64,000 nt of DNA, from positions 186,001-250,000 of the forward strand of contig JACRLZ010000004.1 of assembly GCA_016235125.1 (NCBI GenBank), in the 5' to 3' direction. Shown one piece after another: positions 38,614 to 64,000 of the stretch. Position 1 is the first letter of the stretch; each line of letters opens with the position of its first letter. The DNA is from Sphingobacteriales bacterium (lineage in GTDB: Bacteria; Bacteroidota; Bacteroidia; Chitinophagales; Chitinophagaceae). The notes beneath the pieces are model-generated. The model was not told the origin of the DNA and did no database searches. It saw only the letters and a program-made list of their open reading frames with translations. Position numbers and translations under genes: made by a program.

Positions 38614-38717
38614 GTGATGGATAATTATAGCTGAAATGGGCAGGTAAAAATGAGATGTTAAGCAGAGAGTCTACCTTTCGGTAACAGGTATATTAATCGT
38701 TCGGGGTAAAGGTAATT

Positions 38718-38747
38718 ATAATTAAGGACTTTTTTATCTTTAATTAT
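38718..38747. terminator. 30-base AT-rich dyad at the end of the UPF0306 gene
   Basis: ATAATTAA...TTAATTAT arms of eight bases enclose GGAC-TTTTTT-ATCT. The dyad covers the stop codon of the UPF0306 gene and could end transcripts of the trhP-like/ferredoxin/UPF0306 operon. It lies about 105 bases upstream of the 616-residue gene, so it could equally be an operator. A related GAC-TTTTTT-GTC element occurs at 40782-40799, upstream of the same operon. Confidence 0.4.
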
Positions 38748-45800: not shown

Positions 45801-46432
45801 CCGCCTATACTTATAATGTAGAAAGGTTGGTTCCGTGGAGAACACTTACCGGACGGCAGCATTTTTATCTAGACCATGAATTATATATTGCTCATGGTGA
45901 GCACCTGCCCACCTATAAACCTGCCCCAAGGCCGGAAGTGTATGGCGATCTGCGTGAAACCTGGAAAAACGGAAAAGCATTAGCACTGAATTATCTCACG
46001 CCTCATGGTAAGTGGCACATTCACTCCACTTATATGGAAAATATCCGGATGCTTACACTTTCCCGTGGATGCGAGCCTTGCTGGCTGAGTGAAAAAGATG
46101 CCGAAACATTGGGTATAAAAGATAATGACTGGGTAGAAGTTCATAACGATCATGGTGTGTATGTAACCCGTGCCTGCGTTAGTTCAAGGATTGCACCCGG
46201 AAGTTGTATTGTATATCATGTGCCGGAAAGAACGGTAGGAATTCCTAAATCACAATTGAGAGGTAACAGGCGCGGAGGAGGACATAACAGTGTAACCCGC
46301 ACTCACCTGAAGCCAAATTACCTGAGTGGCGGATACGGGCAGTTCTCTTATCACTTTAATTATTGGGGGCCAATCGCACCGCAAAGGGATACACATGTAA
46401 TCGTAAAGAAAATGGAGAAACTTGTTTGGTAG
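42815..46432 (+). CDS. narG: respiratory nitrate reductase alpha subunit (NarG)
   Basis: NarG reduces nitrate to nitrite at a molybdenum bis-MGD centre on the cytoplasmic side. The 1205-residue protein has the FS0 cluster ligands ([13 protein letters not shown] near residue 32 with His and two Cys, and [16 protein letters not shown] near 73) and the Mo-ligand Asp in [16 protein letters not shown] near 250. The C-terminal part keeps [10 protein letters not shown] and the final Arg-rich [10 protein letters not shown]. There is no Tat signal, as expected for the membrane-bound cytoplasm-facing type. It is followed by narH after 28 bases. Confidence 0.97.
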
Positions 46433-46460
46433 ATAAACTTTAATCTTAAATATTTTAAAT

Positions 46461-48011
46461 ATGGATGTCCGCTCACAAATATCAATGGTCTTTCACCTGG
46501 ACAAATGTATCGGGTGCCACACCTGCTCTATTGCCTGTAAAAACATATGGACTGACCGTAAGGGAGCAGAATATATGTGGTGGAATAATGTAGAAACCAA
46601 ACCGGGTACAGGTTATCCTACCAAATGGGAAGATCAGAATATTTACAGGGGTGGCTGGCAAAAAACCAATGGAAAAGTTACCCTTAAAGGTGCAGGAAAA
46701 AGAAGAGGATTGACTAATATCTTTTATAACCCCAACCTTCCGGTTATTGATGACTATTATGAACCCTTTACGTATAAATATTTAGATCTTATAGAATCTC
46801 CGGAAGGGGATGATCAGCCAACTGCAAGGCCTGTTTCTTTAATAACCGGCAAACCTATTGATATTAAAATGGGACCTAACTGGGATGATGATCTCAGCGG
46901 TACTCCTGATTACGGCAGAAACGACCCGAATCTGAAAAACTTAAGTGCTGCTGAACAGGAAGTGATGTTTCAACTGGAAAGAATGGCATTCTTTTATCTA
47001 CCACGGATTTGTAACCATTGTTTGAATCCTGCCTGTGTAGGAGCATGTCCTTCCGGTGCTATTTACAAACGGGGCGAAGATGGTGTTGTGTTAATTAACC
47101 AGGAAGTTTGCCGTGCCTGGCGGATGTGTGTAACCGCCTGTCCTTACAAAAAATCATACTACAACTGGCATACCGGTAAATCTGAAAAGTGTATTCTCTG
47201 TTTTCCCCGTCTTGAAGCGGGTCTTGCACCTGCCTGTATGCACTCATGCGTAGGAAGAATCCGTTATCTCGGAGTATTGCTGTATGATGCAGATAAAATA
47301 GAAGCAGCCGTACATGATGACGAGAAAAATCTGATAGACCGTCATCTTGATATTATCCTGGATCCATTTGATGAAAAAGTAATAAGGGCTGCAAAAATGA
47401 ACGGTGTTGCTGATTCAACAATTCATGCTGCACAGTTTTCTCCTGTTTACAAATATGTGAAAGAATGGAAACTGGCATTACCACTTCATGCTGAGTTCCG
47501 CACATTGCCGATGTTATTTTATGTGCCACCATTGCTGCCGGTCATGGCAACAGTGAAACAGGTAGATAACAGCGACCAGGCAGAAAAAATGAATCCCATC
47601 GCAAAATACTGGGATGACAACTGGCTGTATGATACCAGCACCAAAGAATTATGGGGCACACTGGATCAGGTTCGCTTCCCGCTGAAATACCTTGCCAGCC
47701 TGCTCAGCGCCGGCAATGAAGACATGATAAAAGATAAATGGAAAAAATTAATGGCAGTCCGTATTCATCGCAGAAGAGTTACCGTAGGTGATGTAAGCAA
47801 TGAAAAAGCGGATGAAACTTTACGGGAAGCAGGAATAACTGCTGAGATGGCTGATGGAATTTTCTATCTCACTGCGCTGGCAAAATTTGAAGACCGTTTT
47901 GTCATTCCTCCGGCTCACCGTGAGCAGGCAATTGAAATGCTTGACTTCACCGGAGATACGAAAGGAGAAGTTGGATTCGGAATTAAAAGTAAAATAAGAA
48001 GAGGACTTTAA
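46461..48011 (+). CDS. narH: respiratory nitrate reductase beta subunit (NarH)
   Basis: NarH carries four Fe-S clusters that wire NarI to NarG. The 516-residue protein shows HLDKCIGCHTCSIACKN near residue 13, RICNHCLNPACVGACPSG near 181, EVCRAWRMCVTACPYKKS near 215 and KCILCFPRLEAGLAPACMHS near 240. The Trp in CRAWRMC marks the [3Fe-4S] cluster of NarH. The first segments are intact and the length is normal. narJ starts 20 bases later. Confidence 0.97.
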   Translation: MDVRSQISMVFHLDKCIGCHTCSIACKNIWTDRKGAEYMWWNNVETKPGTGYPTKWEDQNIYRGGWQKTNGKVTLKGAGKRRGLTNIFYNPNLPVIDDYYEPFTYKYLDLIESPEGDDQPTARPVSLITGKPIDIKMGPNWDDDLSGTPDYGRNDPNLKNLSAAEQEVMFQLERMAFFYLPRICNHCLNPACVGACPSGAIYKRGEDGVVLINQEVCRAWRMCVTACPYKKSYYNWHTGKSEKCILCFPRLEAGLAPACMHSCVGRIRYLGVLLYDADKIEAAVHDDEKNLIDRHLDIILDPFDEKVIRAAKMNGVADSTIHAAQFSPVYKYVKEWKLALPLHAEFRTLPMLFYVPPLLPVMATVKQVDNSDQAEKMNPIAKYWDDNWLYDTSTKELWGTLDQVRFPLKYLASLLSAGNEDMIKDKWKKLMAVRIHRRRVTVGDVSNEKADETLREAGITAEMADGIFYLTALAKFEDRFVIPPAHREQAIEMLDFTGDTKGEVGFGIKSKIRRGL

Positions 48012-48030
48012 TAAGTAAAGAAAATACAAT

Positions 48031-48816
48031 ATGGATACCATTTCAGATATAAAACCAGGCATACAATCCTCAACGACACAGGAACTGAGCGATTATGAAT
48101 TGATATCCGGGCTTTTTATTTATCCGCAAAGCAATTCATATGTAACCGAAGGAGAAGAGGTATATAAGCATTTCTCTGCCACCCTTCCGGAAGCGGCAGA
48201 ACTGATGAAACCTTTCACTGAGTTTATCGCTAACTCTACTGTGCAGGAAATACAGGAATTATTCCTTCGTTCATTTGATGTGCAGGCCATTACCACACTT
48301 GATATTGGCTTTACCTTATTTGGAGAAGATTACAAACGGGGACAATTGCTGGTGAACCTGAACAGAGAGCATCGGGAAGCCGGAAATGATTGCCATACCG
48401 AACTCTCCGACCATTTACCGAATGTATTGCGTTTGTTGCCAAAAATGAAAGATGAAACAATGCGTAATGAAATTGCGCTACGATTGCTTATTCCGGCAGT
48501 AGAAAAAATGATCAGCGAATTTGATGGCAGGAAAATTGAAAAGAAAGATGAAATCTATAAAAAGAACCTGAAAACGGTTATTGACTATTCACCGGTTTAC
48601 AGAACGGTGTACCAGAGTTTGCTACAGGCGTTGTTTATCGCACTAAAAAATGATTTTGGCTATGAACCCGGCAGTTTAAATGTTCCATCGGGTGTTGAAG
48701 AACAGGATATCAGTAATCTGTCTTGCAGTGATAAGACAGCCTGCAGCTCCTGTAATCCTGTTGCTAAGGATTACAGTGGAAATATTGAAATAGAAATGAA
48801 CATTGAAAAATATTAA
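48031..48816 (+). CDS. narJ: nitrate reductase assembly chaperone (NarJ)
   Basis: NarJ is a TorD-family chaperone that holds NarGH until molybdenum cofactor is loaded and the complex docks on NarI. The 261-residue protein has the typical helix around YELISGLFIYPQ, LDIGFTLFGEDYKRGQLLVN near residue 90, and a cluster of leucines and acidic residues before SDHLPNVLRLLPKM near 130. It is somewhat long, with a C-terminal extension rich in Cys (LSCSDKTACSSCNP) that could bind metal. Its position between narH and narI is standard. Confidence 0.92.
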   Translation: MDTISDIKPGIQSSTTQELSDYELISGLFIYPQSNSYVTEGEEVYKHFSATLPEAAELMKPFTEFIANSTVQEIQELFLRSFDVQAITTLDIGFTLFGEDYKRGQLLVNLNREHREAGNDCHTELSDHLPNVLRLLPKMKDETMRNEIALRLLIPAVEKMISEFDGRKIEKKDEIYKKNLKTVIDYSPVYRTVYQSLLQALFIALKNDFGYEPGSLNVPSGVEEQDISNLSCSDKTACSSCNPVAKDYSGNIEIEMNIEKY

Positions 48817-48834
48817 TGACAAAAACAGCATACT

Positions 48835-49563
48835 ATGAATGCTCTTAATAATTTCTTCTTTATTGCGCTTCCTTATATGGCGCTGGTAATTTTCCTGGTG
48901 GGTTCTATTTACCGGTTCACCTATAAGGGGTTTCAGTTTTCATCACTTTCCTCCCAGTTCCTGGAAGGAAGAAAATTATTTTATGGCTCTGTGCCGTTTC
49001 ACTGGGGCGTCATTTTTCTTTTTCTGGGTCACCTTATTGCATTTCTTTTTCCACGGGAAGTTTTGGCATGGAACAGCCAGCCGGTTCGCCTGATGATACT
49101 TGAGATTACCGCTTTCATTTTCGGTATCAGTATGCTGGTGGGTCTTGTTAATCTTTTGGTGAGACGATACACCACCCCCCGTTTGAAGTTTGTTACCAAT
49201 AAAATGGACCTGGTGATTTATCTGTTGCTGATATTTCAAACCGTAATGGGCTTGTGGATTGCTTACAATTTCCGTTGGGGTTCTTCCTGGTTTTCCACTT
49301 TACTTACCCCTTATCTGAATTCTATTTTCACCCTTCAGCCTGACATAACAGTTGTATCACTGCTTCCTTTGACGGTTAAGCTTCATATCATCGGCGCTTT
49401 TGTAATTATCGGGCTTATCCCCTTTTCAAGGCTCATTCACTTCCTGGTTCCTCCTATTGATTATATATGGCGCCCTTATCAGCAGGTAAGGTGGTATTGG
49501 GGCAGAAGAAAGGTACGAAGCCCCCGCACACCCTGGTCGGTACAACGTCCTAAAAATAATTAA
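48835..49563 (+). CDS. narI: nitrate reductase gamma subunit (NarI)
   Basis: NarI is the dihaem cytochrome b that oxidises quinol and anchors NarGH in the membrane. The 242-residue protein has five membrane spans. Haem ligands are visible in PFHWGVIFLFLGHLIAFLFP near residue 56 and in KLHIIGAFVIIGLIPFSRLI near residue 180 followed by HFLV. It is 18 bases after narJ and 3 bases before the next gene. Confidence 0.95.
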   Translation: MNALNNFFFIALPYMALVIFLVGSIYRFTYKGFQFSSLSSQFLEGRKLFYGSVPFHWGVIFLFLGHLIAFLFPREVLAWNSQPVRLMILEITAFIFGISMLVGLVNLLVRRYTTPRLKFVTNKMDLVIYLLLIFQTVMGLWIAYNFRWGSSWFSTLLTPYLNSIFTLQPDITVVSLLPLTVKLHIIGAFVIIGLIPFSRLIHFLVPPIDYIWRPYQQVRWYWGRRKVRSPRTPWSVQRPKNN

Positions 49564-50029: not shown

Positions 50030-51529
50030 ATGGAACAAAGAGTAACTGCAACATCTCACCGTATTCTTTTTTTAAACACTCTGGCATTTACTGTTTGTTT
50101 TGCCGTGTGGATGTTTAATGGAGTACTCGTTGCTTTTCTTGTGGATAACCAGATTTTCAAATGGAACCCGGTTGAAATTGGTTGGTTGCTTGCCATTCCT
50201 GTTCTAAGCGGCTCTATATTCAGGCTTCATGGCGGAATATGGACAGATAAATATGGTGGCAAATGGATGATGGGCGGATTACTGTTATTATGTTCCATTC
50301 CCATGTTTTTGGTTAGCTATGCAAACAGCTTTGCAGCCTTTGCATTATGCAGCCTGGGGTTTGGCCTGTCTGGAGTTGGTTTTTCAATTGGTATTGCTTC
50401 CACTTCACTGTGGTATCCAAAAGAATGGCAGGGACGGGCACTTGGCATTTTCGGAATGGGCAATTTTGGGGCAGGTATCACAACCCTGGTAGCTCCTACA
50501 TTGTTGAAAAAGCTCACAGGTAATGGAACAAACCTTGAAGGTTGGCGCCAGCTTCCTCAAATTTATGCGGCAGCATTAGTTATTATGGCAGTTATCTTTC
50601 TGGTCTTTACAAAAAATAAAAAATCAGAAAAAGCCAAAGGAAAAAGCTTTATCAAAATGCTTGCTCCTTTAAAACAGACAAGGGTATGGCGCTTTGGTTT
50701 GTATTATTACCTGGTGTTCGGATGTTTTGTTGCCTTGTCACAATGGCTGGTTCCATATTATGTAAATATGTATTCTGTTTCTTTAGTTACTGCAGGATTA
50801 CTGGCATCGCTGTTCAGCATGCCTTCAGGTCTTATCCGGGCATTGGGCGGCTGGTTATCTGATAAGCTGGGCGCCAGAAAAGTGATGTACTGGATTTTTG
50901 TTGCATCCTGCATTATTTGTTTTTTACTCATCATACCGCAAATGGAAATCCAATCACCCGGTCAGGGTGTGCTTGCAAAAAGAAGTGGCACGGTTAGTTT
51001 CGTTTCTGATAGCCTGATACAGGTTGATGGATTGTCTTATCCGCTTGTTATCAAAAAGGAAATGGCGGTTTCAAATACTAAATTTTCTGTTTTTCCCAAA
51101 AAAAATACCTGGCAGGTACCCGTAGTCAAAACAGGAGACCAGATAAAAAAGAAGCAACTGCTTGCAAAAGGAACCACCCTGATTAATTTCCAGGCTAATA
51201 TCTGGATTGCCACTTTTTTAATTTTTCTTGTTGGAATAGTATGGGGAATCGGTAAGGCAGCTGTGTATAAGCATATTCCAAATTATTTCCCAAATGATGT
51301 GGGCGCCGTAGGTGGAATGGTAGGTGTACTGGGTGGATTAGGAGGATTTTTTTCCCCTATCATCTTCGGCTATTTGCTCAAAGGAACAGGATTATGGACC
51401 AGTATGTGGATCTTTCTTTGGGCAGTATCCATTACCTGTCTATGGTGGATGCATCATGTAATTACACATATGAGAGATAAAGCGGCTCCCCATACAAAAG
51501 GAAAATTTGAATCATCTAACGAACATTAA
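50030..51529 (+). CDS. narK: NarK-family nitrate/nitrite transporter with periplasmic insert
   Basis: This 499-residue MFS protein has twelve predicted spans and NarK-type glycine-rich signatures (LSGSIFRLHGGIWTDKYGGK near 62, GIFGMGNFGAGITTL near 142, GGMVGVLGGLGGFFSP near 432). NarK proteins take up nitrate and/or export nitrite. The unusual feature is a hydrophilic insert of about 75-80 residues between spans 9 and 10, in a periplasmic loop, with a beta-sandwich look (AKRSGTVSFVSDSLIQVDG, VKTGDQIKKKQLLAKGTTLI) that recalls barrel-sandwich hybrid domains. Ordinary NarK has only a short loop there. Confidence 0.9.
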   Translation: MEQRVTATSHRILFLNTLAFTVCFAVWMFNGVLVAFLVDNQIFKWNPVEIGWLLAIPVLSGSIFRLHGGIWTDKYGGKWMMGGLLLLCSIPMFLVSYANSFAAFALCSLGFGLSGVGFSIGIASTSLWYPKEWQGRALGIFGMGNFGAGITTLVAPTLLKKLTGNGTNLEGWRQLPQIYAAALVIMAVIFLVFTKNKKSEKAKGKSFIKMLAPLKQTRVWRFGLYYYLVFGCFVALSQWLVPYYVNMYSVSLVTAGLLASLFSMPSGLIRALGGWLSDKLGARKVMYWIFVASCIICFLLIIPQMEIQSPGQGVLAKRSGTVSFVSDSLIQVDGLSYPLVIKKEMAVSNTKFSVFPKKNTWQVPVVKTGDQIKKKQLLAKGTTLINFQANIWIATFLIFLVGIVWGIGKAAVYKHIPNYFPNDVGAVGGMVGVLGGLGGFFSPIIFGYLLKGTGLWTSMWIFLWAVSITCLWWMHHVITHMRDKAAPHTKGKFESSNEH

Positions 51530-51540
51530 ACTTAAAAAAT

Positions 51541-52884
51541 ATGTCAACCTGGTTAGCAAAATGGGATCCTGAAGATAATTTACAATGGGAAAGTGAGGGT
51601 AAACGGATAGCCTGGCGAACCCTTACTATTACAACACTTGCCCTTACTCTTTCGTTTGCCACCTGGTTTATGATGAGTGTAATCGTAGTAAAACTGCCCG
51701 GTATTGGTTTTAAATTTACCACCAATCAATTGTTCTGGATTGCTGCTATGCCGGGCCTTGCGGGAGGCACATTTCGCATCATACACACTTTCCTGTTGCC
51801 AATTTATGGTACCAGGCATGTAATAACTTTTGCTACCCTGCTGAAATTAATCCCCTGTGTAGGTATTGGATTAGCAGTAATGGATCCTGCTACTCCTTTC
51901 TGGGTTTTTCTAATTCTGGCTTTTAGTTGTGGATTTGGTGGCGGCGATTTTTCTTCCTTCATGCCAAGTACGAATTTATTTTTTCCAAAAAGATTAAAAG
52001 GCACTGCCCTGGGAATTCAGGCAGGGATTGGAAATTTCGGAGTGAGCCTGGCACAGTTCATGACACCGGCACTGCTGGGAGTCGCTATTTATGGAGCATC
52101 CGAAACTTTCACAAAAGTGAATCCCAAAACCAAAGAGGTTCTTGGCAGCGATCAAATTTATTTACAGAATGCAGCTCTCTGGTACATACCACTGCTTTTT
52201 CTTGTTGCTATAATTTGCTGGTGGAAATTGCGCAGCATTCCCGTAAAGGCATCCTTTAAAGAACAACTGGATATTTTCAGAAATAAACACACCTGGTTCT
52301 GCACAATCACCTACATGATGACATTTGGTTCTTTTGCCGGGCTATCTGCAGCATTTCCATTGTTAATGAAAACACTCTACGGAAATTTTGAAGGAGCCCC
52401 GGATCCATTAAAATTCGCATTCTACGGTCCATTAATCGGTTCAGCAAGCCGTGTAATTTTCGGTTTTGTTTCTGATAAAACAGGGGGAGCTATTCTTACT
52501 ACCATTACAGGTATTGGACTGATGACAGGCTGTACCTTACTCATCACAATGGGGTTGGTGGCACCTACCAGCATGGAACAGTTTCCAATTTTTGTGGCCG
52601 TTATGCTTGGCTTATTTTTCTTTACCGGAATTGGTAACGCCGCTACTTTCCGGCAGTTCCCGATTATTTTCGGGCATAATCCAAGACAGGCGGCAGGTGT
52701 TATCGGCTGGACAGCAGCCATTGCAGCCTACGGCCCATTTATTTTTTCTATTATTATTGGATCCGTGATAAAATTAACCGGAAATGCAACCGGGTTTTTT
52801 TATGGTTTAATTTGTTTTACATTAATTGCTACCTGGATAAACTGGTATTATTACAACCGAAAAGGCTGCGAAAAACCAAGTTAA
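51541..52884 (+). CDS. narK: NarK-family nitrate/nitrite transporter (second)
   Basis: This 447-residue MFS transporter follows the first NarK by 11 bases. It carries NarK-like motifs: GFGGGDFSSFMPSTNLFFPK near residue 140, LGIQAGIGNFGVSLAQF near 158, SASRVIFGFVSDKTGGA near 300 and FTGIGNAATFRQFPIIF near 360. Paired NarK genes (proton-symport and nitrate/nitrite antiport types) occur in many denitrifiers. The cytoplasmic N terminus is longer than in the first copy, and the periplasmic insert is absent. Confidence 0.92.
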   Translation: MSTWLAKWDPEDNLQWESEGKRIAWRTLTITTLALTLSFATWFMMSVIVVKLPGIGFKFTTNQLFWIAAMPGLAGGTFRIIHTFLLPIYGTRHVITFATLLKLIPCVGIGLAVMDPATPFWVFLILAFSCGFGGGDFSSFMPSTNLFFPKRLKGTALGIQAGIGNFGVSLAQFMTPALLGVAIYGASETFTKVNPKTKEVLGSDQIYLQNAALWYIPLLFLVAIICWWKLRSIPVKASFKEQLDIFRNKHTWFCTITYMMTFGSFAGLSAAFPLLMKTLYGNFEGAPDPLKFAFYGPLIGSASRVIFGFVSDKTGGAILTTITGIGLMTGCTLLITMGLVAPTSMEQFPIFVAVMLGLFFFTGIGNAATFRQFPIIFGHNPRQAAGVIGWTAAIAAYGPFIFSIIIGSVIKLTGNATGFFYGLICFTLIATWINWYYYNRKGCEKPS

Positions 52885-53694: not shown

Positions 53695-54678
53695 ATGTTA
53701 AGAGATAATTTTAACCGCATACACGATTATCTCAGGATTTCACTTACGGATAAGTGTAATCTCAGGTGTACCTATTGCAATCCGGTGGATTTGCCCAAAG
53801 GATTTTTTGCCGGAGCTCCCCGGATGACAGCTGATGAAATAGAAAAAATTGCCTCTGTCTTCATAAAAGAAGGGGTAAAAAAAATCCGGCTTACAGGCGG
53901 TGAGCCCCTGGTAAGAAAAGATGCCGGAGAAATTATACAACGCCTGGCAAAATATCCGGTGGAACTGGCCATCACCACCAACGGCGTTTTTGTACATGAA
54001 TTTATTGAAACATTCAAACAGGCAGAAATCCGCTCCATTAATGTAAGCCTCGATTCATTGAAAAAAGAAAAAAATCTTTTGATTACCGGAAGAAATGAAT
54101 TTGACAGGGTACTGGACAATATTAATCTTTTACTGAAAAATGAGTTTCATGTAAAAGTTAATATGGTAGTCATGAAAAATGTTAACGACGATGAAATAAT
54201 CGATTTTATTGCGTGGACTCAGCAGCAACCGGTACATGTCAGGTTTATTGAATTTATGCCCTTTACCGGCAACCGCTGGACCAATGAGAAAGTAGTTTCA
54301 CACCAGGAAATATTGGAAATAATTTCCAGGAAATTTTCTTTCAGCAAACTGCCTGATAAAATAAACGATACTGCTAAAAAATATTTTGTAAAGGAACACA
54401 AAGGAACCTTTGCCATTATCAGCACTATGACCCAACCATTTTGCAGCGGGTGCAACAGAATGCGGCTGACAACAGACGGAAAAATGAAAAACTGTCTTTT
54501 TTCAAAAAATGAAACAGATATCCTGGGAGCTCTGAGAAAGGGAATGGATATAGTTCCTATCATTAAACAATGCCTTTTTGAAAAAGAAGAGTCATTAGGC
54601 GGCCAGTTCACAACTATAAATAACAACCCGCTTGTATCAAAAATCAATAACAGGAGCATGATTAATATTGGCGGATAA
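53695..54678 (+). CDS. moaA: GTP 3',8-cyclase (MoaA)
   Basis: MoaA is the radical-SAM enzyme that starts molybdenum cofactor synthesis from GTP. The 327-residue protein has the SAM-cluster motif DKCNLRCTYC near residue 18, KKIRLTGGEPLVRKD near 62 and the C-terminal cluster cysteines in PFCSGCNRMRLTTDGKMKNC near 255. It ends with the expected double glycine tail (INIGG) that is needed for activity. It opens a run of Moco genes that serve NarG and the Hcr enzyme. Confidence 0.96.
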   Translation: MLRDNFNRIHDYLRISLTDKCNLRCTYCNPVDLPKGFFAGAPRMTADEIEKIASVFIKEGVKKIRLTGGEPLVRKDAGEIIQRLAKYPVELAITTNGVFVHEFIETFKQAEIRSINVSLDSLKKEKNLLITGRNEFDRVLDNINLLLKNEFHVKVNMVVMKNVNDDEIIDFIAWTQQQPVHVRFIEFMPFTGNRWTNEKVVSHQEILEIISRKFSFSKLPDKINDTAKKYFVKEHKGTFAIISTMTQPFCSGCNRMRLTTDGKMKNCLFSKNETDILGALRKGMDIVPIIKQCLFEKEESLGGQFTTINNNPLVSKINNRSMINIGG

Positions 54679-54693
54679 TCTCAATGAGTAAAA

Positions 54694-56142
54694 ATGCGCA
54701 TATTACTTACCGGAGCGAATGGTTATATTGGCATGAGGTTGCTGCCGGTGCTGGTAGAAGCCGGGCATGAAGTAACCTGCGTTGTCAGAGACCGGCTGCG
54801 TTTCAAACCTTCTTCCGACCTTCTTTCCAAAATCAATATTATAGAATACGATTTCCTTCAACCGGAAAATGCCGTACAGCATTTTAATAAAAAACAGTTT
54901 GATGTCGCCTATTATCTGATTCATTCCCTGGGCGACACTTCCACTACGTTGAAAGAGTACGAAGTAAGGTCGGCCGGTTGTTTTGTATTGGTTGCATCCC
55001 TTACGCAGGTAAAGCAAATAATTTATCTGAGTGGTATAAGCAACGAAAAAAACCTCTCGAAACATTTAATGGCCAGAAAAGTGGTTAAAGATGTGTTTAT
55101 CCGGTCTGGAATTGCCTATACTATTTTCGAAGCAGGCATTATTGTGGGTTCGGGTAGTATATCATTTGAAATTATCCGTGACATTACTGAAAAGCTGCCC
55201 ATTATGATTGTTCCCCGCTGGCTCAACTCAAAATGTCAGCCAATCGCAATCAGAAATGTCATAAACTATTTATTTAAAAGCCTGCTGGTCGAAAAAACTT
55301 TTTTTAAACCTTTTGAAATAGGCGGGCCCGATGTTTTAACTTACAAACAGATGCTGCTGGGCTTTGCTGCCGTACGTGGCTATAAGCGATATATTATTTC
55401 ATTACCGGTTCTTTTTCCAAAGCTTTCAATTTACTGGTTATATCTTACCACTTCTGCCAACTTTACAATTGCAAGGCAGTTGGTACAAAGCATGAAGAAT
55501 GATGTGGTCTGTAAAGAATTTTCTATCCGTGATATTATTCCCCAGGAATTAATTTCTTACCGGGATGCCATAAAAATGGCTTTCGAAAGAATAGAGCAAA
55601 ATATGGTTATTTCAAGCTGGACTGATTCTGCATCCAGCAGCCTCAGCAGACTGGATGTTCATCAGCACATAGAAGTACCGGTGAATGGATGTTATCTGGA
55701 TCGTAGATGGATTGAAATTGATAAGGAAAAAGTGGAAGAGGTAGCCAGCCGTTTTTTTGGAATTGGCGGGAAAAATGGCTGGTATTATGCTGATAAATTA
55801 TGGCGATTACGGGGTCTGATGGATAAACTGGCCGGGGGCGTAGGTATGAGCAGGGGGAGAAGAAGTGATGTGGATATTCAGGCAGGTGAGACTATAGATT
55901 TCTGGAGAGTGCTTTTAGCAGACCGTAAAAATCACCGGTTGCTGTTATATGCCGAAATGAAACTTCCCGGTGAAGCCTGGCTTGAATTTTCCATTGTTCA
56001 AAACGACAATCGTTGTATCCTGAAACAAACAGCCACATTCCGTCCAAAAGGAATTATGGGACGTAATTACTGGTACTTTATGCTTCCATTCCATTATTTT
56101 ATATTCAGAAATATGCTCAAAAGAATAGCAGGAAAAAATTAG
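54694..56142 (+). CDS. NAD(P)-binding epimerase-like protein with DUF2867 domain
   Basis: This 482-residue protein has an N-terminal atypical SDR domain (RILLTGANGYIGMRLLPVLV at residue 2, AYYLIHSLGD near 72, IIYLSGIS near 108) and a C-terminal DUF2867 domain (residues about 330-480, with GWYYADKLWRLRGLMDKLAG and FRPKGIMGRNYWYFMLPFHY). Its substrate is unknown. It lies in the Moco operon, 15 bases after moaA, but there is no known cofactor step for it; it may act on quinones or on envelope compounds. Confidence 0.85.
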   Translation: MRILLTGANGYIGMRLLPVLVEAGHEVTCVVRDRLRFKPSSDLLSKINIIEYDFLQPENAVQHFNKKQFDVAYYLIHSLGDTSTTLKEYEVRSAGCFVLVASLTQVKQIIYLSGISNEKNLSKHLMARKVVKDVFIRSGIAYTIFEAGIIVGSGSISFEIIRDITEKLPIMIVPRWLNSKCQPIAIRNVINYLFKSLLVEKTFFKPFEIGGPDVLTYKQMLLGFAAVRGYKRYIISLPVLFPKLSIYWLYLTTSANFTIARQLVQSMKNDVVCKEFSIRDIIPQELISYRDAIKMAFERIEQNMVISSWTDSASSSLSRLDVHQHIEVPVNGCYLDRRWIEIDKEKVEEVASRFFGIGGKNGWYYADKLWRLRGLMDKLAGGVGMSRGRRSDVDIQAGETIDFWRVLLADRKNHRLLLYAEMKLPGEAWLEFSIVQNDNRCILKQTATFRPKGIMGRNYWYFMLPFHYFIFRNMLKRIAGKN

Positions 56143-56170
56143 TGACAGATATTAAATATAATAAGCCCGC

Positions 56171-57346
56171 ATGAAAAAGGTAACGGAAGCAAAAAAACTT
56201 ATTCTGGAAAATTGCAGCCCACCTGGAAAAGAATTGATATCATTAAGCAACGCCATGGGTTTTGTTTTGGCAGAACCTGTTCTTTCTCCGGTTGACACTC
56301 CCCCTTTTAACCAATCTGCAATGGATGGTTTCGCTTTTTCCTTTGATACATGGGATGGCCATAGCAATCTGACTATAAGGGGAGAAATTCAGACAGGAAA
56401 TTATGATGACAGGTATCTGAAACCACTTGAAGCGGTTCGTATTTTTACAGGCGCAGCATTACCTCCCAATGCTGATACTGTTGTGATGCTGGAAAAGATT
56501 CTTCTGAAGGATAATTTTATTTGTATAAAAGATGATAGCCTGACAAAAGGCACAAATGTCCGGCTCCGGGGATCTCAAACAAAAAGAGGGGAACTGGCAA
56601 TGAACTCCGGACAATTGTTGACAGCCCCGGCCATTTCATTTCTGGCGGGTATGGGTATTGAAAAAGTAAATGTATTTTCAAAACCGGTCATCAGCATTAT
56701 TGTAACAGGTAAGGAATTAATTGCCCCCGGTAATGCAATTACCCCGGGAAAAATATTTGAATCCAATTCATTCGGCCTCGCTGCAGCACTGGAACAATTA
56801 CATATTTCACCATTCTCAGTACAGGTAGTTGATGATAATGAGGAAGAAATCATCAAAACCATTACTAAGCATTTGCAATCAGACATACTTATTCTTACCG
56901 GGGGAATATCTGTTGGTGATTACGATTTGGTTGCTCCGGCGCTTGAAAAATGCGGAGTCAAACAAATTTTTCATAAAGTAAAACAAAAGCCGGGAAAACC
57001 CTTTTATTTCGGGATCTATAATCATACCCTGGTATTTGCGCTGCCTGGCAATCCGGGAGCAGTAATGACATGCTTTTATGAATATATTGTTCCGGCAATC
57101 AGTTGCTATACCCGAAAAGAATATTTCAGAAAATTAACTTTACCCCTGGAAAATAGCTTTACAAAAAAACCGGGGCTCACCTACTTTCTCAAGGGAAAAA
57201 CAAAAGGTAATTCCGTTGTGATTTTAGATAACCAGGAAAGCTACCTGATGAATTCTTTTGCGATAGCTGACTGCATTATTGAACTGGATGAAGAAAAAGA
57301 ACATTTTAACCCTGGAGACCGGGTATTTGTTCAGATGATTTATTAA
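56171..57346 (+). CDS. moeA: molybdopterin molybdenumtransferase (MoeA)
   Basis: MoeA inserts molybdate into adenylylated molybdopterin. The 391-residue protein has the expected domains: FNQSAMDGFAFSFDTW near residue 43, RIFTGAALPPNADTVVMLEK near 88, VRLRGSQTKRGE near 125 and the MoCF-type core ILTGGISVGDYDLVAPAL near 240 with KPGKPFYFGIYNHTLVFALP near 278. It lies 28 bases after the DUF2867 gene and is followed by a TSUP permease gene. Confidence 0.95.
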   Translation: MKKVTEAKKLILENCSPPGKELISLSNAMGFVLAEPVLSPVDTPPFNQSAMDGFAFSFDTWDGHSNLTIRGEIQTGNYDDRYLKPLEAVRIFTGAALPPNADTVVMLEKILLKDNFICIKDDSLTKGTNVRLRGSQTKRGELAMNSGQLLTAPAISFLAGMGIEKVNVFSKPVISIIVTGKELIAPGNAITPGKIFESNSFGLAAALEQLHISPFSVQVVDDNEEEIIKTITKHLQSDILILTGGISVGDYDLVAPALEKCGVKQIFHKVKQKPGKPFYFGIYNHTLVFALPGNPGAVMTCFYEYIVPAISCYTRKEYFRKLTLPLENSFTKKPGLTYFLKGKTKGNSVVILDNQESYLMNSFAIADCIIELDEEKEHFNPGDRVFVQMIY

Positions 57347-57394
57347 GCTTCTAAAATGCAAAGAAACTTTAAGTGAAATTATTTTTGAATATAT

Positions 57395-58126
57395 ATGCCG
57401 GTTGATCTTTCCTTTTATCCGCTCCTTTTACTGGTGGCCTTTTTATATGCCTCTGTGGGGCATGGAGGCGCCAGCGGCTACCTGGCATTAATGGCATTCT
57501 TTTCATTTCCTTCAGAAGCGATGCGGCCCGCCGCATTACTGTTGAATATTTTTGTTTCCCTGATTGCTTTTATTCAATACTACCGGATTGGATATTTTCA
57601 ATGGAAGTTATTCTGGCCTTTTGCAATTGCATCCATTCCGGCTTCTTTTGCCGGAGGATTATTTACACTGGATGATACTTTATACAAAAAAGTATTAGGA
57701 GTCTTGCTGATATTCCCTATAGTAAAACTCGCAGGATTGAAATTTAAACCGGAAGGGTTACAGAGAGAAGTGCCGTTTTATGCTGCATTGTTAACCGGTA
57801 CCCTTATTGGATTTCTATCCGGCATGATTGGAATCGGCGGGGGGATTATTCTAAGCCCGGTTATTCTTTTGTTACACTGGGCAGATATGAAACAAACTGC
57901 TGCCGTTTCAGCATTATTCATTTTTGTAAATTCGCTTGCCGGCCTCGCAGGCCTTTTTACTACTGGTTTTGAATACAAGCCTGAAATGGGATGGATGATA
58001 GCAGTGGCTTTTGCAGGCGGTTTGGCCGGTTCTTATTTAGGAGCTCTGAAATTCAACAGTTTGCTGTTAAAAAGAATATTGGCTGCTGTATTGCTGATTG
58101 CTTCAGTAAAATTGTTATTCACCTGA
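57395..58126 (+). CDS. TSUP (TauE/SafE) family permease
   Basis: This 243-residue integral membrane protein has about eight spans and the two-fold repeated glycine-rich motifs of the family: FLYASVGHGGASGYLALMAF near residue 15 and LSGMIGIGGGIILSPVIL near 140. Related proteins move sulfite, sulfur-containing organic acids or other small anions. Its place between moeA and moaD might point to a cofactor-related anion such as a sulfur species, but this is only context. Confidence 0.88.
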   Translation: MPVDLSFYPLLLLVAFLYASVGHGGASGYLALMAFFSFPSEAMRPAALLLNIFVSLIAFIQYYRIGYFQWKLFWPFAIASIPASFAGGLFTLDDTLYKKVLGVLLIFPIVKLAGLKFKPEGLQREVPFYAALLTGTLIGFLSGMIGIGGGIILSPVILLLHWADMKQTAAVSALFIFVNSLAGLAGLFTTGFEYKPEMGWMIAVAFAGGLAGSYLGALKFNSLLLKRILAAVLLIASVKLLFT

Positions 58127-58145
58127 GTTATGACAAACGTCAAGT

Positions 58146-58385
58146 ATGATAATAAAAATTAACCTGTTATTTTTCGGACAAGCTGCTGATATTACCGGAA
58201 AGGCTTCCTGGAATTTTTCAGGAATAACCAATACACTGGAACTCAATGAAAAACTTATTGAAAATTTTCCTGGACTTCAAACGATCAAATATTCCATTGC
58301 AGTAAACAGGAAGATTGTCCGGGAAAACACAATATTAAATAATGAAGATACCGTTGCCATACTTCCTCCGTTTTCAGGAGGATAA
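58146..58385 (+). CDS. moaD: molybdopterin synthase small subunit (MoaD)
   Basis: MoaD is a ubiquitin-like sulfur carrier whose C-terminal Gly-Gly is turned into a thiocarboxylate. The 79-residue protein opens with INLLFFGQAADITG and ends DTVAILPPFSGG, the required terminal motif. It is followed after 5 bases by its activating enzyme and then by MoaE. Confidence 0.93.
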   Translation: MIIKINLLFFGQAADITGKASWNFSGITNTLELNEKLIENFPGLQTIKYSIAVNRKIVRENTILNNEDTVAILPPFSGG

Positions 58386-58390
58386 ATAAA

Positions 58391-59521
58391 ATGAAGCGTA
58401 CCGATAAATATCAAAGATACCAGCGGCAGATACTGCTGAAAGAATTTGGAACAGCAGGCCAGGAAAAATTATCTGTGGCCAGGATATTGGTTGTTGGCGC
58501 CGGCGGTTTGGGTTGTCCGGCACTTCAATATCTGGCAGCAGCGGGAGTAGGAACGATTGGTATTGTTGATTTTGATGTAATAGATGTTTCAAACCTTCCG
58601 AGGCAAATTCTGTACACAGAAGAAGACATCGGTAAACCCAAGGCGGAAACGGCTGCAAAAAAACTAAAATCACTGAATCCTGGAATTGAAATAAAGACAT
58701 ACAACATCAAATTAGATAATCAGAATGCTATTGAAATAATACCCGGCTATGATATTGTGATTGACGGGTCTGATAATTTTTCAACCCGGTACCTCATTAA
58801 TGATGCCTGTGTACTGTGCAATAAACCCCTGGTATATGGCGCCGTACTGCGCTTTGAAGGACAGGTGGGTGTGTTTAATCTTACCACTGAGCAAACAAAA
58901 ACCAAAACCAATTACCGGGATTTATTTCCGGAGCCTCCCGATCCTTCTTCAACCTTATCCTGTTCCGAGGCCGGCGTATTAGGTGTTTTACCCGGTATCA
59001 TCGGCATATTACAAGCTACGGAAACAATAAAAATTATTACGGGTATCGGCAAACCTCTTGCTGATTCAATAATATCTTTTAATGCACTGAATAACCAGTT
59101 TTATGAATGCAGCATACCGGCTTCCGTTGATTCACATCGGCAGATGCCTAAAAACATCAAAGAATTTCTGAAGTTCAATTACGAATGGTTTTGCGGGGCT
59201 TCTTCTGTAAACAATGAAATTTCTGTACAGGAATTTGATGCGTTGAGAAGCGCCGGAAAAATTACCATCATTGATGTCCGGGAACAGGGTGAACTTCCCG
59301 AAGTGAATGAGTTTTTATTTATTCATATCCCGCTTAGCAGGTTTAAAGAATCTGTTGCTGAAATTTCAACAAAGAATAAAATTGTGGTTTTTTGTCAGTC
59401 TGGAATAAGGAGTCGTCAGGCAGTTAAGATTTTAAATGAGGTATCCGGAGAATATGATGCTTACAGTCTGAAAGGGGGTATTATAGAATGGAAAGAATTA
59501 CAGGAAAATATTTCTGTTTAA
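58391..59521 (+). CDS. moeB: MoeB-type adenylyltransferase with rhodanese domain
   Basis: This 376-residue enzyme adenylates the MoaD C terminus. The N-terminal ThiF/MoeB domain has YQRQILLKEFGTAGQEKL near residue 8, VVGAGGLGCPALQYLAAAGV near 35 and DVSNLPRQILY near 65. A C-terminal rhodanese domain (residues about 275-375) with the active-site loop VVFCQSGIRSRQAV could supply the sulfur, as in MOCS3-like enzymes. The gene lies between moaD and moaE, which supports a Moco role over a thiamine role. Confidence 0.9.
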   Translation: MKRTDKYQRYQRQILLKEFGTAGQEKLSVARILVVGAGGLGCPALQYLAAAGVGTIGIVDFDVIDVSNLPRQILYTEEDIGKPKAETAAKKLKSLNPGIEIKTYNIKLDNQNAIEIIPGYDIVIDGSDNFSTRYLINDACVLCNKPLVYGAVLRFEGQVGVFNLTTEQTKTKTNYRDLFPEPPDPSSTLSCSEAGVLGVLPGIIGILQATETIKIITGIGKPLADSIISFNALNNQFYECSIPASVDSHRQMPKNIKEFLKFNYEWFCGASSVNNEISVQEFDALRSAGKITIIDVREQGELPEVNEFLFIHIPLSRFKESVAEISTKNKIVVFCQSGIRSRQAVKILNEVSGEYDAYSLKGGIIEWKELQENISV

Positions 59522-59522
59522 C

Positions 59523-59966
59523 ATGATAGATAAGAAAAAACATAAAGTATTTGTTGACGGGGCCATTGGGCCGGCTTTTATTGCTGATTCAATTGCAAAA
59601 CACAGTACAAAGAAAAACATCGGTGCACACAGCATTTTTCTCGGGCAGGTACGGAATGACATTATTAATGAAAAAGAAGTGGAGGCAATAGAGTACACGG
59701 CATATTCTGAAATGGCAGAGGAAATATTTCATGAAATCCGTGAAGCCGCTTTTACAAAATATTCATTAACCTGTATGCACATTTATCATAGTATAGGCCG
59801 TGTGAATGCCGGAGAAATAAGTTTATTTGTTTTTACCTCTTCTGTTCATCGCAAAGATGCCATACAGGCCTGCAATGAAATTGTTGAAAGGATAAAAAAC
59901 GAAGTGCCGGTTTGGGGAAAAGAAATATTTTCCGGGGAAACCTATCAATGGAAAACAAACAGTTAA
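59523..59966 (+). CDS. moaE: molybdopterin synthase large subunit (MoaE)
   Basis: MoaE adds two sulfurs from MoaD to cyclic pyranopterin monophosphate to make molybdopterin. The 147-residue protein contains [11 protein letters not shown] near residue 41, [16 protein letters not shown] near 60, [20 protein letters not shown] near 90 and the active-site lysine in [11 protein letters not shown] near 128. It begins one base after the moeB stop. Confidence 0.93.
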
Positions 59967-59979
59967 AACGTATCGCATT

Positions 59980-60891
59980 ATGATTGACATAACGAATAAG
60001 ATAAAAACCCACCGCACAGCTAAAGCGCAGGCGATAGTTAAAGTGAGTAATCAGGAAACTATTGATGCCATCAATAATAAAACTGTTCCAAAGGGAGATG
60101 TATTGGAAGCAAGCCGGGTGGCTGGTTTATTTGCTGTTAAAAAAACCAGCGAACTGATACCCGATTGTCATCCCCTCCCAATTGAATTTGCTACTATTAC
60201 TCATTCCATTGAAGGATTACAGATTATTATCGAAACTGAAGTACATACCATTTACCGGACCGGCGTAGAAGTAGAGGCAATGCATGGTGCCTCAGTCGTT
60301 GCATTAACCATTTACGATATGCTGAAGCCTATTGATAAGGAAATTGAAATTACCAGTATTAAACTTATAAGCAAAAAAGGCGGCAAGTCGCAATACATTG
60401 ATAAACTGAACCGGAAAATAAAAGCAGCGGTAATTGTTTGCTCAGACAGTATTTCTTCCGGGAAAAAACAGGATATGGCCGGTAAAGCCATTATCAGCAA
60501 GCTTGAAAAATACAATATCACTATTGATGATTACAGTATCATTCCGGATGAAATAAAAGATATACAGGATAAAACACTTACCCTATACGATAATAAATTT
60601 GATCTGATTATTTTAACCGGCGGAACAGGATTGTCTGCAAGAGATGTTACCCCTGAAGCTATCCGTCCCCTGATTGACCGTGAAATTCCGGGCATTGCGG
60701 AAGCCGCAAGAAATTATGGTCAGGAACAAATGCCTTATTCAATGCTTTCACGAAGTGTTGCCGGGTTAAAAGGGAATACACTCATCCTGGCTTTACCGGG
60801 ATCCACAAGAGGGGCGAAGGAAAGTATGGATGCTCTTTTCCCGTATATTCTTCACATCTTTAAGATCATGGAACATTCGCAACATGACTGA
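59980..60891 (+). CDS. moaCB: bifunctional MoaC-MogA/MoaB fusion
   Basis: This 303-residue protein combines two Moco steps. Residues 1-145 are MoaC (cyclic pyranopterin monophosphate synthase), with [11 protein letters not shown] near residue 60, [20 protein letters not shown] near 90 and SKKGGKSQ. From about residue 150 a MogA/MoaB domain follows ([20 protein letters not shown] near 150, [19 protein letters not shown] near 207, [20 protein letters not shown] near 263) that adenylates molybdopterin. Fusions of this kind are known in Bacteroidota. It is the last gene of the plus-strand block. Confidence 0.93.
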
Positions 60892-60979: not shown

Positions 60980-62521
60980 TTATACATATTTGATAAAACA
61001 ACTACGTCGTTTGTGTTGCACTGTTTCATAATAATCCCATTGCGACTGTACCCGGGTATTTTCTTCCAGTTCGGGATTTGATTCCGCATACTCAATACCA
61101 TGCCGGATAAATGCAGCATTAATTTCCCTGATAAGAATGGCATTGACACCCTTGCCCTGCAAATCTTTACGCACTGCTATCAGACTAAGATCGGCTAATT
61201 TATTTCTTTTGAATGCCCTGAGGAGGTGCAGAAAACCAAAAGGATAAAGTTTGCCTTTTGCCTTTTGCAAAGCCCTTGATAAGGATGGCATTGTGATAGC
61301 GAATCCGGCGAGTTCACCATATCTATCGAGTACCAATGAAATAAACTCCGGTTTAATAAACCTTAAATACTTGCGGATATAATACTGAATCTGTTTATCC
61401 GTCATCGGTACCATGCCGAATAAACCTGTATAAGCAGAATTGATGAGCTCAAAAATCTTAACGGCATACGGAAGAACTTCTTTCAGCTTTGTTGGTTTAA
61501 TTACCCTAAGCTGAAGCCTTTTCTCAACGACCGATGCGGCTTTTTCAATTTTTTCGGGTATAGTCTCTGTAATTTTTATTTTATATTCCACCCATCCGGT
61601 TTCTTTTTTATAGCCTGCTCTTTCCATGAACTCCGGGTAATAAGGATAGTTGTAAATGGTAGCAAGGGTTCCTGTTTCATTAAATCCATGGGTAAGCATG
61701 CCTGCATAATCAAAATTGGTAAAGCCCAACGGGCCATGCACAGCTATCATTTCATTATCCCTGGCCCACTGTTCCACTTTTTGCAATAAAGCCCGGGCTA
61801 CGGTTTCATCTTCAATAAAATCAAACCAGCCAAAACGTACAAAGGGCTGTTTCCATGTTTTTATGAAAGAATAATTGATGATCCCGGCTATTCGGCCAGC
61901 AGGTTTTCCATCTTTATACGCCAGCCAGTATCTTGCTTCGCAAAAGTCGAAGGCAGGATTTTTGGTCTTGTTAAATGTATCCTGCATATCTTTTTTCAAC
62001 TGCGGTATGTAAAAGAGGTTGCCCTTGTACAACCGGAGCGGAAAATTGATAAACTCAGCCATCTGCTTATTTGTTTTTACCTCTTCTATTGAAATGCCGG
62101 CGGATGATGTATTGATTTGCTTAGCTGTGCTTAAGATGCTGCCAAGTTTTTCTTTCCCTTTTGCAATACTCAGCTCCAATATCTTCAGTATTTCTTCGGC
62201 TTCCTTCAAATCAAAATCCTTATGATATTCTTTTTTTACACCAAATGAAGTAAGTTCAAAATGCATCGAAGGCTGAATGGAATGATTGATCAAACAGGCT
62301 TTGGAGCAGGCCAGCGGGCACCCGTCTATTACAATAATCTTTCTTCCCGACTGTGCTGTGTGCAGCAGATTTTTAACGTTCCCTCCCACCCCTGCTATAC
62401 AACTCATTTCAGCAATAGCTCTTCTGTCGAGCTGCACAGCAAGATAGTTTGTCATTTGCGCCACACTACTGCAACCCGAACAAGAGTAAACAAGGGGCCT
62501 GGTTTCAGAAACTACTTTCAT
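60980..62521 (-). CDS. DGC zinc-binding domain / acetyltransferase-like fusion
   Basis: This 513-residue protein has an N-terminal DGC-type putative zinc-binding domain (residues 1-115) with YSCSGCSSVAQMTN near 13, EMSCIAGVGGNV near 38, IDGCPLACSKACL near 65 and the closing VKKEYHKDFDL. The remaining part (about 155-513) resembles YghO-like N-acyltransferases (PLRLYKGNLFYIPQLKKDM near 176, MIAVHGPLGFTNFDYAG near 256, LIAVRKDLQGKGVNAILIRE near 451, which has a GNAT-like acetyl-CoA loop). DGC proteins often neighbour denitrification genes in Bacteroidota as far as I recall. It is 71 bases downstream of the Nod-like gene on the same strand. Confidence 0.82.
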   Translation of the reverse strand: MKVVSETRPLVYSCSGCSSVAQMTNYLAVQLDRRAIAEMSCIAGVGGNVKNLLHTAQSGRKIIVIDGCPLACSKACLINHSIQPSMHFELTSFGVKKEYHKDFDLKEAEEILKILELSIAKGKEKLGSILSTAKQINTSSAGISIEEVKTNKQMAEFINFPLRLYKGNLFYIPQLKKDMQDTFNKTKNPAFDFCEARYWLAYKDGKPAGRIAGIINYSFIKTWKQPFVRFGWFDFIEDETVARALLQKVEQWARDNEMIAVHGPLGFTNFDYAGMLTHGFNETGTLATIYNYPYYPEFMERAGYKKETGWVEYKIKITETIPEKIEKAASVVEKRLQLRVIKPTKLKEVLPYAVKIFELINSAYTGLFGMVPMTDKQIQYYIRKYLRFIKPEFISLVLDRYGELAGFAITMPSLSRALQKAKGKLYPFGFLHLLRAFKRNKLADLSLIAVRKDLQGKGVNAILIREINAAFIRHGIEYAESNPELEENTRVQSQWDYYETVQHKRRSCFIKYV

Positions 62522-62592: not shown

Positions 62593-64000
62593 TTAATCCT
62601 GAGCCAGAGGGGCTGAAACTTTTTCATCTTCACTTACTTGTTGTTCTTTAATAGTAACAGTTTTTTCTTTTAATCTTCTCCGGCGGGTAGTAATAAACCA
62701 TACCAGCGGAATAACACCGCCAAGTGTAAATAAGGCGCCACCCACCATACGCAGCCAGGTGAGTGTTTGAAATCCGGCGCTTTCAATAAACCGGTGACTG
62801 CGGGCATACCAAAGCCCATTATCGGTTACAGATTTAAACTGCCAGATACCGGCAGGGAATAAATCAAGAAACACCATCAGCAATAAACCCACATTGACAG
62901 ACCAGAAAGCAGTTTTGATAACACGGGGTTTCCACCATTCTGATTTTATCAACAACTGACTACAGAATAATATCGCCGCCAGTGCAAGATTTCCATATAC
63001 ACCCATCAGCGCTGCATGACCATGATTGACGGTCAGGTAGGTTCCATGTTCATAATAATTGGCAATGGGAAGATTGATAATAAAGCCCAGTACACCGGCT
63101 CCAAAGAAATTCCAGAAGTTTACCGCCACCAAAAACATGAACACTTCTGAAAAACCAAAACGACGCCCTTCACTGACAGAACTGCCATTTCCATTTTCAA
63201 GTACACGGGGCAGTTTGCTGAACCGCCATGCCTCCAGTGTAAGCAATACAAGAGGCACTACCTGCAAAGTGGAAAATACGGAGCCCAGCGCCATCGTGAA
63301 AACAGGTTTGGCATTCCAGTAAAAATTATGCGAGATGCCTAATAACCCTGAGCCGAGAAACAGCAATGCAGCAAGATAGATAACCCTGGTAGCAGCCTTT
63401 CTGCTTACAAGCCCCATCTGTACCATGAAATATCCTATCAGCACAGTAGTGAATACTTCAAAAAAGGCTTCGGCCCACATATGCACTACCATCCATCGCC
63501 AGAAATCAGCAATAACAAAATTTGTTTTTGGTGTTGCAATGAATCCGGACAGCAATAAAATAATAATGCTGAATGTTGCATATACCAGCCAGTTAGGCAA
63601 ATCCCATGGTTGTTTCAGTTTCATTACCGGCCTGATGCCACGGTACAATGTTATTGCCCACAGAATAAAAACAACACCGAGCATGATCTGCCATATCTTT
63701 CCCGGTTCAACAAATTCCCATCCCTGGTGTCCGAGCCAATACCAGTTTTTGCCAATAAGGCCTTTCGGCCCTAACAAAATTCCTGCAAAGGAACCGGCCG
63801 TAAGTAACACTGTAATCCAGAAAATGCTGTTGATGAGTTTTACCTGCCCTTTCTTTTGTCGTGGAGAAACCAGCGACATCATAAAAAAGGAAGCGCCTAT
63901 CCAGCAGGCTGAGATCCAGAGAATAGATAATTGCACATGCCAGCTTCTTGTTACTGTTATTGGCAAGGGTTCAGAAATATTAAAACCAAAAAAATTAACC
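62593..64000 (-). CDS. nod: probable nitric oxide dismutase (Nod), qNOR-like, 5' partial
   Basis: This is a haem-copper-superfamily protein of the quinol NO reductase type, cut by the window end; the frame is open to 64000. Numbering from the TTG at 63966, the haem b His is in VTRSWHVQL (His10), HMWAEAFFE gives the first FeB His (162) and a Glu (166), and VNHGHAAL gives the haem histidines (315, 317). Where qNOR has His-His, this protein has GISHNFYW: His213 is kept but the next residue is Asn214 (63325-63327). Where qNOR has S-x-LEVVP, it has STLQVVP, Gln235 (63262-63264). These are the changes reported for Nod of Methylomirabilis-type organisms, proposed to turn 2 NO into N2 and O2. The quinol-site residues lie outside the window. 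A divergent NO reductase is the alternative. Confidence 0.85.
   Translation of the reverse strand, partial: VNFFGFNISEPLPITVTRSWHVQLSILWISACWIGASFFMMSLVSPRQKKGQVKLINSIFWITVLLTAGSFAGILLGPKGLIGKNWYWLGHQGWEFVEPGKIWQIMLGVVFILWAITLYRGIRPVMKLKQPWDLPNWLVYATFSIIILLLSGFIATPKTNFVIADFWRWMVVHMWAEAFFEVFTTVLIGYFMVQMGLVSRKAATRVIYLAALLFLGSGLLGISHNFYWNAKPVFTMALGSVFSTLQVVPLVLLTLEAWRFSKLPRVLENGNGSSVSEGRRFGFSEVFMFLVAVNFWNFFGAGVLGFIINLPIANYYEHGTYLTVNHGHAALMGVYGNLALAAILFCSQLLIKSEWWKPRVIKTAFWSVNVGLLLMVFLDLFPAGIWQFKSVTDNGLWYARSHRFIESAGFQTLTWLRMVGGALFTLGGVIPLVWFITTRRRRLKEKTVTIKEQQVSEDEKVSAPLAQD

Follow-up and report, generated by a model that had tools for sequence, protein, structure and literature searches.

A nitric oxide dismutase-signature gene in a Bacteroidota genome with nitrate reductase and benzoyl-CoA reductase genes

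Introduction

The locus described here raises the question of whether a gene at the end of a 64,000-nucleotide stretch of a Sphingobacteriales genome (the window, the whole stretch of DNA that we analysed, contig positions 186001-250000) encodes a quinol nitric oxide reductase (qNOR) or a nitric oxide dismutase (Nod). The initial annotation of this DNA had read a His-to-Asn and a Glu-to-Gln change as the putative Nod signature. That reading agrees with the published description, in which one FeB histidine is replaced by asparagine, a glutamate near the catalytic centre is replaced by glutamine and a proper quinol site is absent (PMC3413370). On the basis of the absent quinol site and the altered catalytic metal site, it was proposed, in what the authors themselves call speculation, that Nod binds two NO molecules and releases N2 and O2 (PMC3413370). 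Putative Nods were described there for 'Ca. Methylomirabilis oxyfera' (DAMO_2434/2437), strain HdN1 and Muricauda ruestringensis, the last of which belongs, like the source organism of our window, to the Bacteroidota.

Environmental nod clones carry changes at positions 328, 332 and 336, with His328 replaced by Thr and Glu332 by Arg in 55 of 88 (PMC10286720). Nod has been invoked as a source of oxygen in benzene-degrading nitrate-reducing cultures (PMC8099898, PMC5852087); the second of these papers found no Nod motif among its authors' own data. According to a 2026 paper, Nod has not yet been isolated and characterised biochemically (PMC13386854). Bacteroidota Nods are already published, from Muricauda, from Sediminibacterium and Algoriphagus MAGs (PMC10264387) and from lake MAGs (PMC13386854), and the gene described here adds one member.

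Results

An intact qNOR-like gene with two changes at the metal site

The nod reading frame lies at 62593-64000 on the minus strand, where it holds the C-terminal part of the protein (468 of 783 codons), and extends past the window edge. Completing the gene from upstream DNA had been put forward as a check by the initial annotation, and the adjoining DNA of the same contig yielded an intact frame of 783 amino acids (L002:3594-5945, or 62593-64944 in window numbering, minus strand) with an ATG start and no internal stops. The source genome is 3.58 Mb in size and is rated 100% complete. The full protein matches the Pfam families COX1 (PF00115, E 1.3e-53) and NorB_cytochrome_c-like (PF22085, E 2.9e-44), a qNOR-like architecture with an N-terminal cytochrome c-like domain, and has no match to an NCBIfam model at E <= 0.001. 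The solved qNOR 3ayf matches it near full length (residues 17-752, E 2.9e-154) with 37% identity, and the solved qNOR 6qq5 is 34% identical. Viral and mobile cargo were considered and rejected: a viral_contigs scan returned no stretch matching the protein's patterns, and the 315 plasmid records with a relative all lie below 60% identity (31-37% among the 40 matches listed).

Both substitutions are found at exactly the codons named in the initial annotation. On the minus strand, bases 63330-63325 read CAT AAT and encode His-Asn at residues 539-540; by alignment, the AAT codon (63325..63327, Asn540) occupies the position of the qNOR FeB ligand His560, and the preceding codon (63328..63330, His539) that of the retained His559. 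Bases 63264-63262 read CAG on the same strand, placing Gln561 (63262..63264) at qNOR Glu581. The claim that the other haem and FeB histidines persist is likewise borne out: along with His559, the equivalents of qNOR His508 and Glu512 are retained (His488 and Glu492, 63469..63483, minus strand, by alignment), as are three further histidines, which we take to be haem ligands. Residues are given below in qNOR numbering.

The two changes are fixed across a large set of relatives. In a 113-sequence alignment, all 84 sequences that are at least 52% identical to the nod protein carry Asn560 and Gln581 together, and none of the 29 at 39% identity or less does, the solved qNORs 3ayf and 6qq5 included, which rules out chance substitutions. 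His508, Glu512 and His559 are retained in all 84 Nod-signature sequences. Although the nod protein resembles 3ayf and 6qq5 in fold and in the haem ligands examined, it has changed all four of His560, Glu581, Glu332 and Asp746, each of which is present in 29 of 29 qNOR-side sequences. The alignment was made after setting aside identical duplicates (L002, L003, L026, L039, L113 and L114), loci carrying the same gene (L001 and L105-L108) and matches below 300 bits, cNOR-like sequences among them. The signature Asn is part of one of the six peptide patterns with which 80 of the loci were gathered, a caution as to selection; whole-genome searches, which are free of this bias, give the same divide between Nod and qNOR in the loci fetched.

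A quinol site lost in part

The quinol site of the nod protein is altered at two of the four positions compared. Glu332 is replaced by Gly, as is Asp746 (Gly736, 62737..62739, minus strand, by alignment), and His328 and Phe336 are retained. The initial annotation had expected both the quinol-site histidine and the glutamate to be replaced, which is true of the glutamate and not of the histidine. His328 binds the quinol head group in qNOR (PMC3413370), so its retention makes some quinol use possible in the nod protein. Among the Nod-signature sequences, Glu332 is absent from 84 of 84 and Asp746 from all 82 readable rows, while 66 of 84 (the nod protein included) keep His328 and 63 of 84 keep Phe336. 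In the 18 sequences without His328, Asn takes its place and Asp746 is mostly Ala; these form a second Nod type (e.g. L078 and L099; several are titled Saprospiraceae).

Compared by published description, the protein is like the Nods of Methylomirabilis, HdN1 and Muricauda in being qNOR-like, in the exchange of the FeB histidine for Asn and of the catalytic glutamate for Gln, and perhaps in an impaired quinol site, of which it has lost two acids. Unlike the environmental clones of PMC10286720, it keeps both His328 and Phe336. A Nod clade with a His328-keeping quinol site was not met in the published descriptions searched, the two likeliest sources lying outside our reach.

Phylogeny, predicted structure and distribution

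The Nod-signature sequences separate from the qNORs in one split, with an SH-aLRT of 100 in an 81-row tree (from which 32 of the 113 aligned rows were dropped) and with support of 100/100, in 200 of 200 bootstrap trees, in a 43-row tree of a chosen subset. These residues and the trees together rule out a plain qNOR. The claim of a Nod signature in a member of the Bacteroidota is thereby upheld; in the phylogeny that had been suggested as a check, the protein falls outside the qNORs with full support, in trees that contain no Methylomirabilis or HdN1 Nod, the Muricauda Nod sequence also being outside the comparison, and the quinol site proves to be part-kept. The Algoriphagus loci L067, L070 and L075 lie inside the Nod-signature clade of the 81-row tree. 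Three long branches (3ayf, 6qq5 and L117) are flagged as meeting others, and the order among the qNORs and the placement of L117 are therefore unsure. Two Nods on very short adjoining branches, L063 and L065, come from MAGs titled Armatimonadetes and Chlorobiota; the shortness of these branches suggests a mislabelled bin or a recent transfer.

The predicted model of a relative 82% identical to the nod protein (pLDDT 77.5, pTM 0.81) superimposes on qNOR 3ayf with a Z of 39.7 and an rmsd of 2.8 over 728 residues, in a comparison restricted to Foldseek's own matches, where the absence of a family carries no meaning. Confidence falls below a pLDDT of 50 at residues 536-539, which include the His-Asn pair, and at 542-545, so the model is uninformative on the geometry of the active site.

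Within the Bacteroidota, 38 of 395 genomes in an even draw match the nod protein at E <= 1e-60. Five of these, the source genome included, do so at 55% identity or more; the next match is at 41% and the remainder are at 37% or less. The residues could be counted in the 30 of the 38 matches that were fetched, and there the same five carry the Nod signature and the other 25 the qNOR signature, the residue counts thus leaving out eight of the phylum matches. Of the 42 genomes of the genus, four have nod. A scan of genome contigs gave 262 relatives, of which the best 80 are 53-84% identical and mostly bear Bacteroidota titles, including Chitinophagaceae, Cyclobacteriaceae and Saprospiraceae; the same 80 also include three Planctomycetota and single MAGs titled Armatimonadetes, Chlorobiota, Kapaibacterium and Thermoanaerobaculia. 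By record title, nod is present in the named isolates Hydrotalea flava, Flavihumibacter solisilvae, Algoriphagus aquaeductus and Cecembia lonarensis. The nod gene is of the same phylum and family as the published Sediminibacterium, Algoriphagus and lake MAG genes; it differs from them in coming from another species and in having nar, benzoyl-CoA reductase and molybdenum-cofactor genes within the same 64 kb.

An Rrf2 regulator upstream of nod

Upstream of nod, on the opposite strand and with a radical SAM gene in between, lies a gene for an Rrf2 regulator with three spaced cysteines (66645-67079 in window numbering). Its product matches the NCBIfam Rrf2 superfamily and scores below the NsrR cut-off. 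Across 81 nod loci (this one and the best 80 of the 262 relatives), Rrf2 genes are densest in the first 2 kb upstream of nod, at 30.5 per 100 kb; the density is 7.0 at 2-4 kb upstream, 0-2.6 in the first 4 kb downstream and 0.8-3.7 at more than 4 kb on either side. An Rrf2 gene is present in 56 of the 81 loci, 43 of which have one within 2 kb upstream; none was found in the other 25 within the DNA examined. Its direction within those 2 kb is variable (23 along nod, 22 against), and 70 of 70 copies have the three spaced cysteines. The regulator near nod is a candidate for the NO-sensing, NsrR-like Rrf2 type. NsrR has been noted near some nod genes, together with a suggestion of NO detoxification (PMC13386854), and this was the one paper found to join nitric oxide dismutase with NsrR. 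A measured link between Rrf2 and nod was not met in the published accounts searched, among which the two likeliest sources could not be included.

Between nod and the radical SAM gene lies an inverted repeat whose two 12-base arms match perfectly and are separated by 4 bases (L002:5972-5999, or 64971-64998 in window numbering). It resembles an operator, but a loose form of it is present in only 1 of 82 upstream regions (the 81 nod loci and the qNOR locus L117), which is this one.

Nitrogen metabolism of nod genomes

At lower positions of the window than nod, on the plus strand, are narG and narH, both over their NCBIfam cut-offs, followed by genes read as narJ and narI by position and sequence only (42815..49563). 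Next come genes for two transporters that resemble the NarK family but score below its cut-off (50030..52884), and then a set of molybdenum-cofactor genes with two other genes between them (53695..60891), in which moaA is over its cut-off, a moeA-like gene is below it, and moeB-, moaE- and moaC/moaB-like genes are read from the sequence. Elsewhere in the genome, NosZ is over the TIGR04246 cut-off, in a nos cluster that also has a hemerythrin/ScdA protein. Genome-wide model searches found no match to NirK, NirS or NrfA in the source genome, so its nitric oxide probably comes from outside, that is, from neighbours, or from side reactions of nitrate respiration. For the same reason, denitrification by the organism itself is a doubtful source of O2, even supposing that nod encodes a dismutase.

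A similar pattern is seen in 50 other nod genomes, chosen from the 80 loci (the best of 262) mainly for longer contigs. The NirK model is matched at E <= 0.001 in 33 of these, with only 11 over the cut-off; four further matches are divergent (E about 1e-51 to 1e-53) and the remainder are weak. The NirS Pfam cut-off is exceeded in 14 of the 50, and only three of these matches, all from Planctomycetota, are strong (E under 1e-100); the other 11, at about 25-32 bits and some counted with frame neighbours, resemble other propellers. This leaves 32 of the 50 with no convincing NO-forming nitrite reductase, MAG incompleteness being a caveat. Among the 42 genomes of the genus, three have NirK over the cut-off and no nod, and the four with nod have no NirK over the cut-off.

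The organism's own nos cluster also encodes a cytochrome c and a NorB-like haem-copper protein (L152:15135-16873), a pair that elsewhere occurs near nod (e.g. L025:5952-7731). This NorB-like protein retains His258, His259 and Glu280, is without the first FeB histidine and Glu211, and has Met at His349; it may, we presume, belong to a recently named NOR family. Its relatives are present in 16 of the 81 nod loci, and five loci (L050, L068, L082, L083 and L086) have an ordinary cNOR-type NorB instead.

Benzoyl-CoA reductase and nod-linked genes

A class I benzoyl-CoA reductase cluster occupies 13864-34420 on the minus strand. Genes for bcrB, bcrD, 6-oxocyclohex-1-ene-1-carbonyl-CoA hydratase and 6-hydroxycyclohex-1-ene-1-carbonyl-CoA dehydrogenase are over their NCBIfam cut-offs, and bcrA-like, second bcrB-like and 4-hydroxybenzoyl-CoA reductase-like genes are below theirs. 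With bcrB over its cut-off in only 3 of the 395 Bacteroidota genomes and 2 of the 42 genus genomes, the source genome is among both.

Several other genes of the window recur around nod, as counted in the best 80 of the 262 relatives. Directly downstream of nod, a gene for a protein with DGC and GNAT-like parts (60980..62521, minus strand, from domain search and locus comparison) has matches in 24 of the 80 other loci, and in 23 of these the match lies less than 6 kb from nod. Comparison with nod loci also picked out a minus-strand group (36763..40639) comprising a 616-amino-acid FabX-like protein, a YhbP-like protein and a U32 peptidase, relatives of which are present in 26, 13 and 7 of the 80 loci, with 22, 13 and 6 of these, respectively, within 6 kb. 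The uncharacterised FabX-like gene (36763-38613, minus strand) represents a family of about 605 amino acids with six invariant cysteines in 23 sequences; NCBIfam gave no match to it at E <= 0.01, and Pfam none over cut-off. Its predicted fold is nearest to that of H. pylori FabX (Z 22.4, rmsd 3.2, 331 residues), an O2-using FMN/Fe-S enzyme, and is also near those of two further flavoproteins, FabK and nitronate monooxygenase.

Discussion

We consider it probable, at roughly 60%, that the gene encodes a Bacteroidota Nod in which the quinol-site acids are lost and the non-haem metal site is altered, and whose main role would be the removal of NO with a small gain of O2. We are led to this reading by the intact gene, the signature that divides Nod-side from qNOR-side sequences completely, the single split in the trees, the qNOR fold of a close relative and the Rrf2 neighbour. 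The protein would be a qNOR-like haem b/b3-FeB membrane protein without two of its quinol-site acids and with His560Asn and Glu581Gln at the metal site. NO, likely from neighbouring cells or from side reactions during nitrate respiration, would prompt the NO-sensing Rrf2 protein to switch nod on; two NO molecules may then bind at haem b3 and FeB and react with each other, taking up no electrons or protons from outside, to be released as N2 and O2. Removal of NO most likely comes first and O2 supply second, the small amount of O2 formed being available to the cell's own O2-using enzymes. The NO-sensing type of regulator and the 32 nod genomes with neither NirK nor strong NirS suggest that nod is kept for the removal of NO and not for denitrification.

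The protein could instead be an altered NO reductase that continues to produce N2O, drawing electrons from quinol through His328 and Phe336 or from another donor. The frequent retention of these two residues on the Nod side, the invariance of His508, Glu512 and His559, the shared qNOR fold and a NosZ able to consume the N2O are all compatible with this explanation; we nonetheless think it unlikely, given that Glu332, Asp746, Glu581 and His560, which every qNOR in the alignment keeps, are changed in every Nod-side sequence in which they can be read. The NorB-like protein elsewhere in the genome could also handle NO instead, which would count against a Nod.

A membrane protein that binds or buffers NO, or performs other NO chemistry, in response to NO stress rather than for O2 would fit the close coupling to an Rrf2 regulator, the failure to find NirK and NirS in the source genome, their scarcity in the other nod genomes (11 NirK over cut-off and 4 divergent, and 3 strong NirS) and the NO detoxification also raised elsewhere (PMC13386854). 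However, apart from the two coordinated substitutions, all 84 sequences have unchanged residues at the positions examined in the haem and FeB pocket, which argues for catalysis and makes such a role rather improbable. As for a decaying qNOR gene with chance substitutions, nothing beyond the two changed residues speaks for it, and the intact frame, the fixation of both changes in 84 sequences, which include some of MAGs from other phyla, and a mean column identity of 66% in a diverse set of 26 sequences refute it almost entirely. The argument against random decay made in the initial annotation therefore stands.

If the gene is a Nod, a more specific picture may be drawn, which we offer as quite speculative. 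A Nod that keeps part of its quinol site, in an aromatic degrader with no known nitrite reductase, might live on the NO of its neighbours, and a trickle of O2 might be spent within the cell on O2-using steps (e.g. the nod-linked FabX-like oxidoreductase) beside the O2-sensitive reduction of benzoyl-CoA. Were this true, many Bacteroidota would form O2 in the dark as a way of detoxifying NO, with no coupling to denitrification. Some carriers of nod are named isolates, which places the question of O2 formation by Nod within reach of pure-culture testing. If these proteins do make O2, then dark O2 formation would not be a curiosity of methane oxidisers, and would instead be spread over many Bacteroidota.
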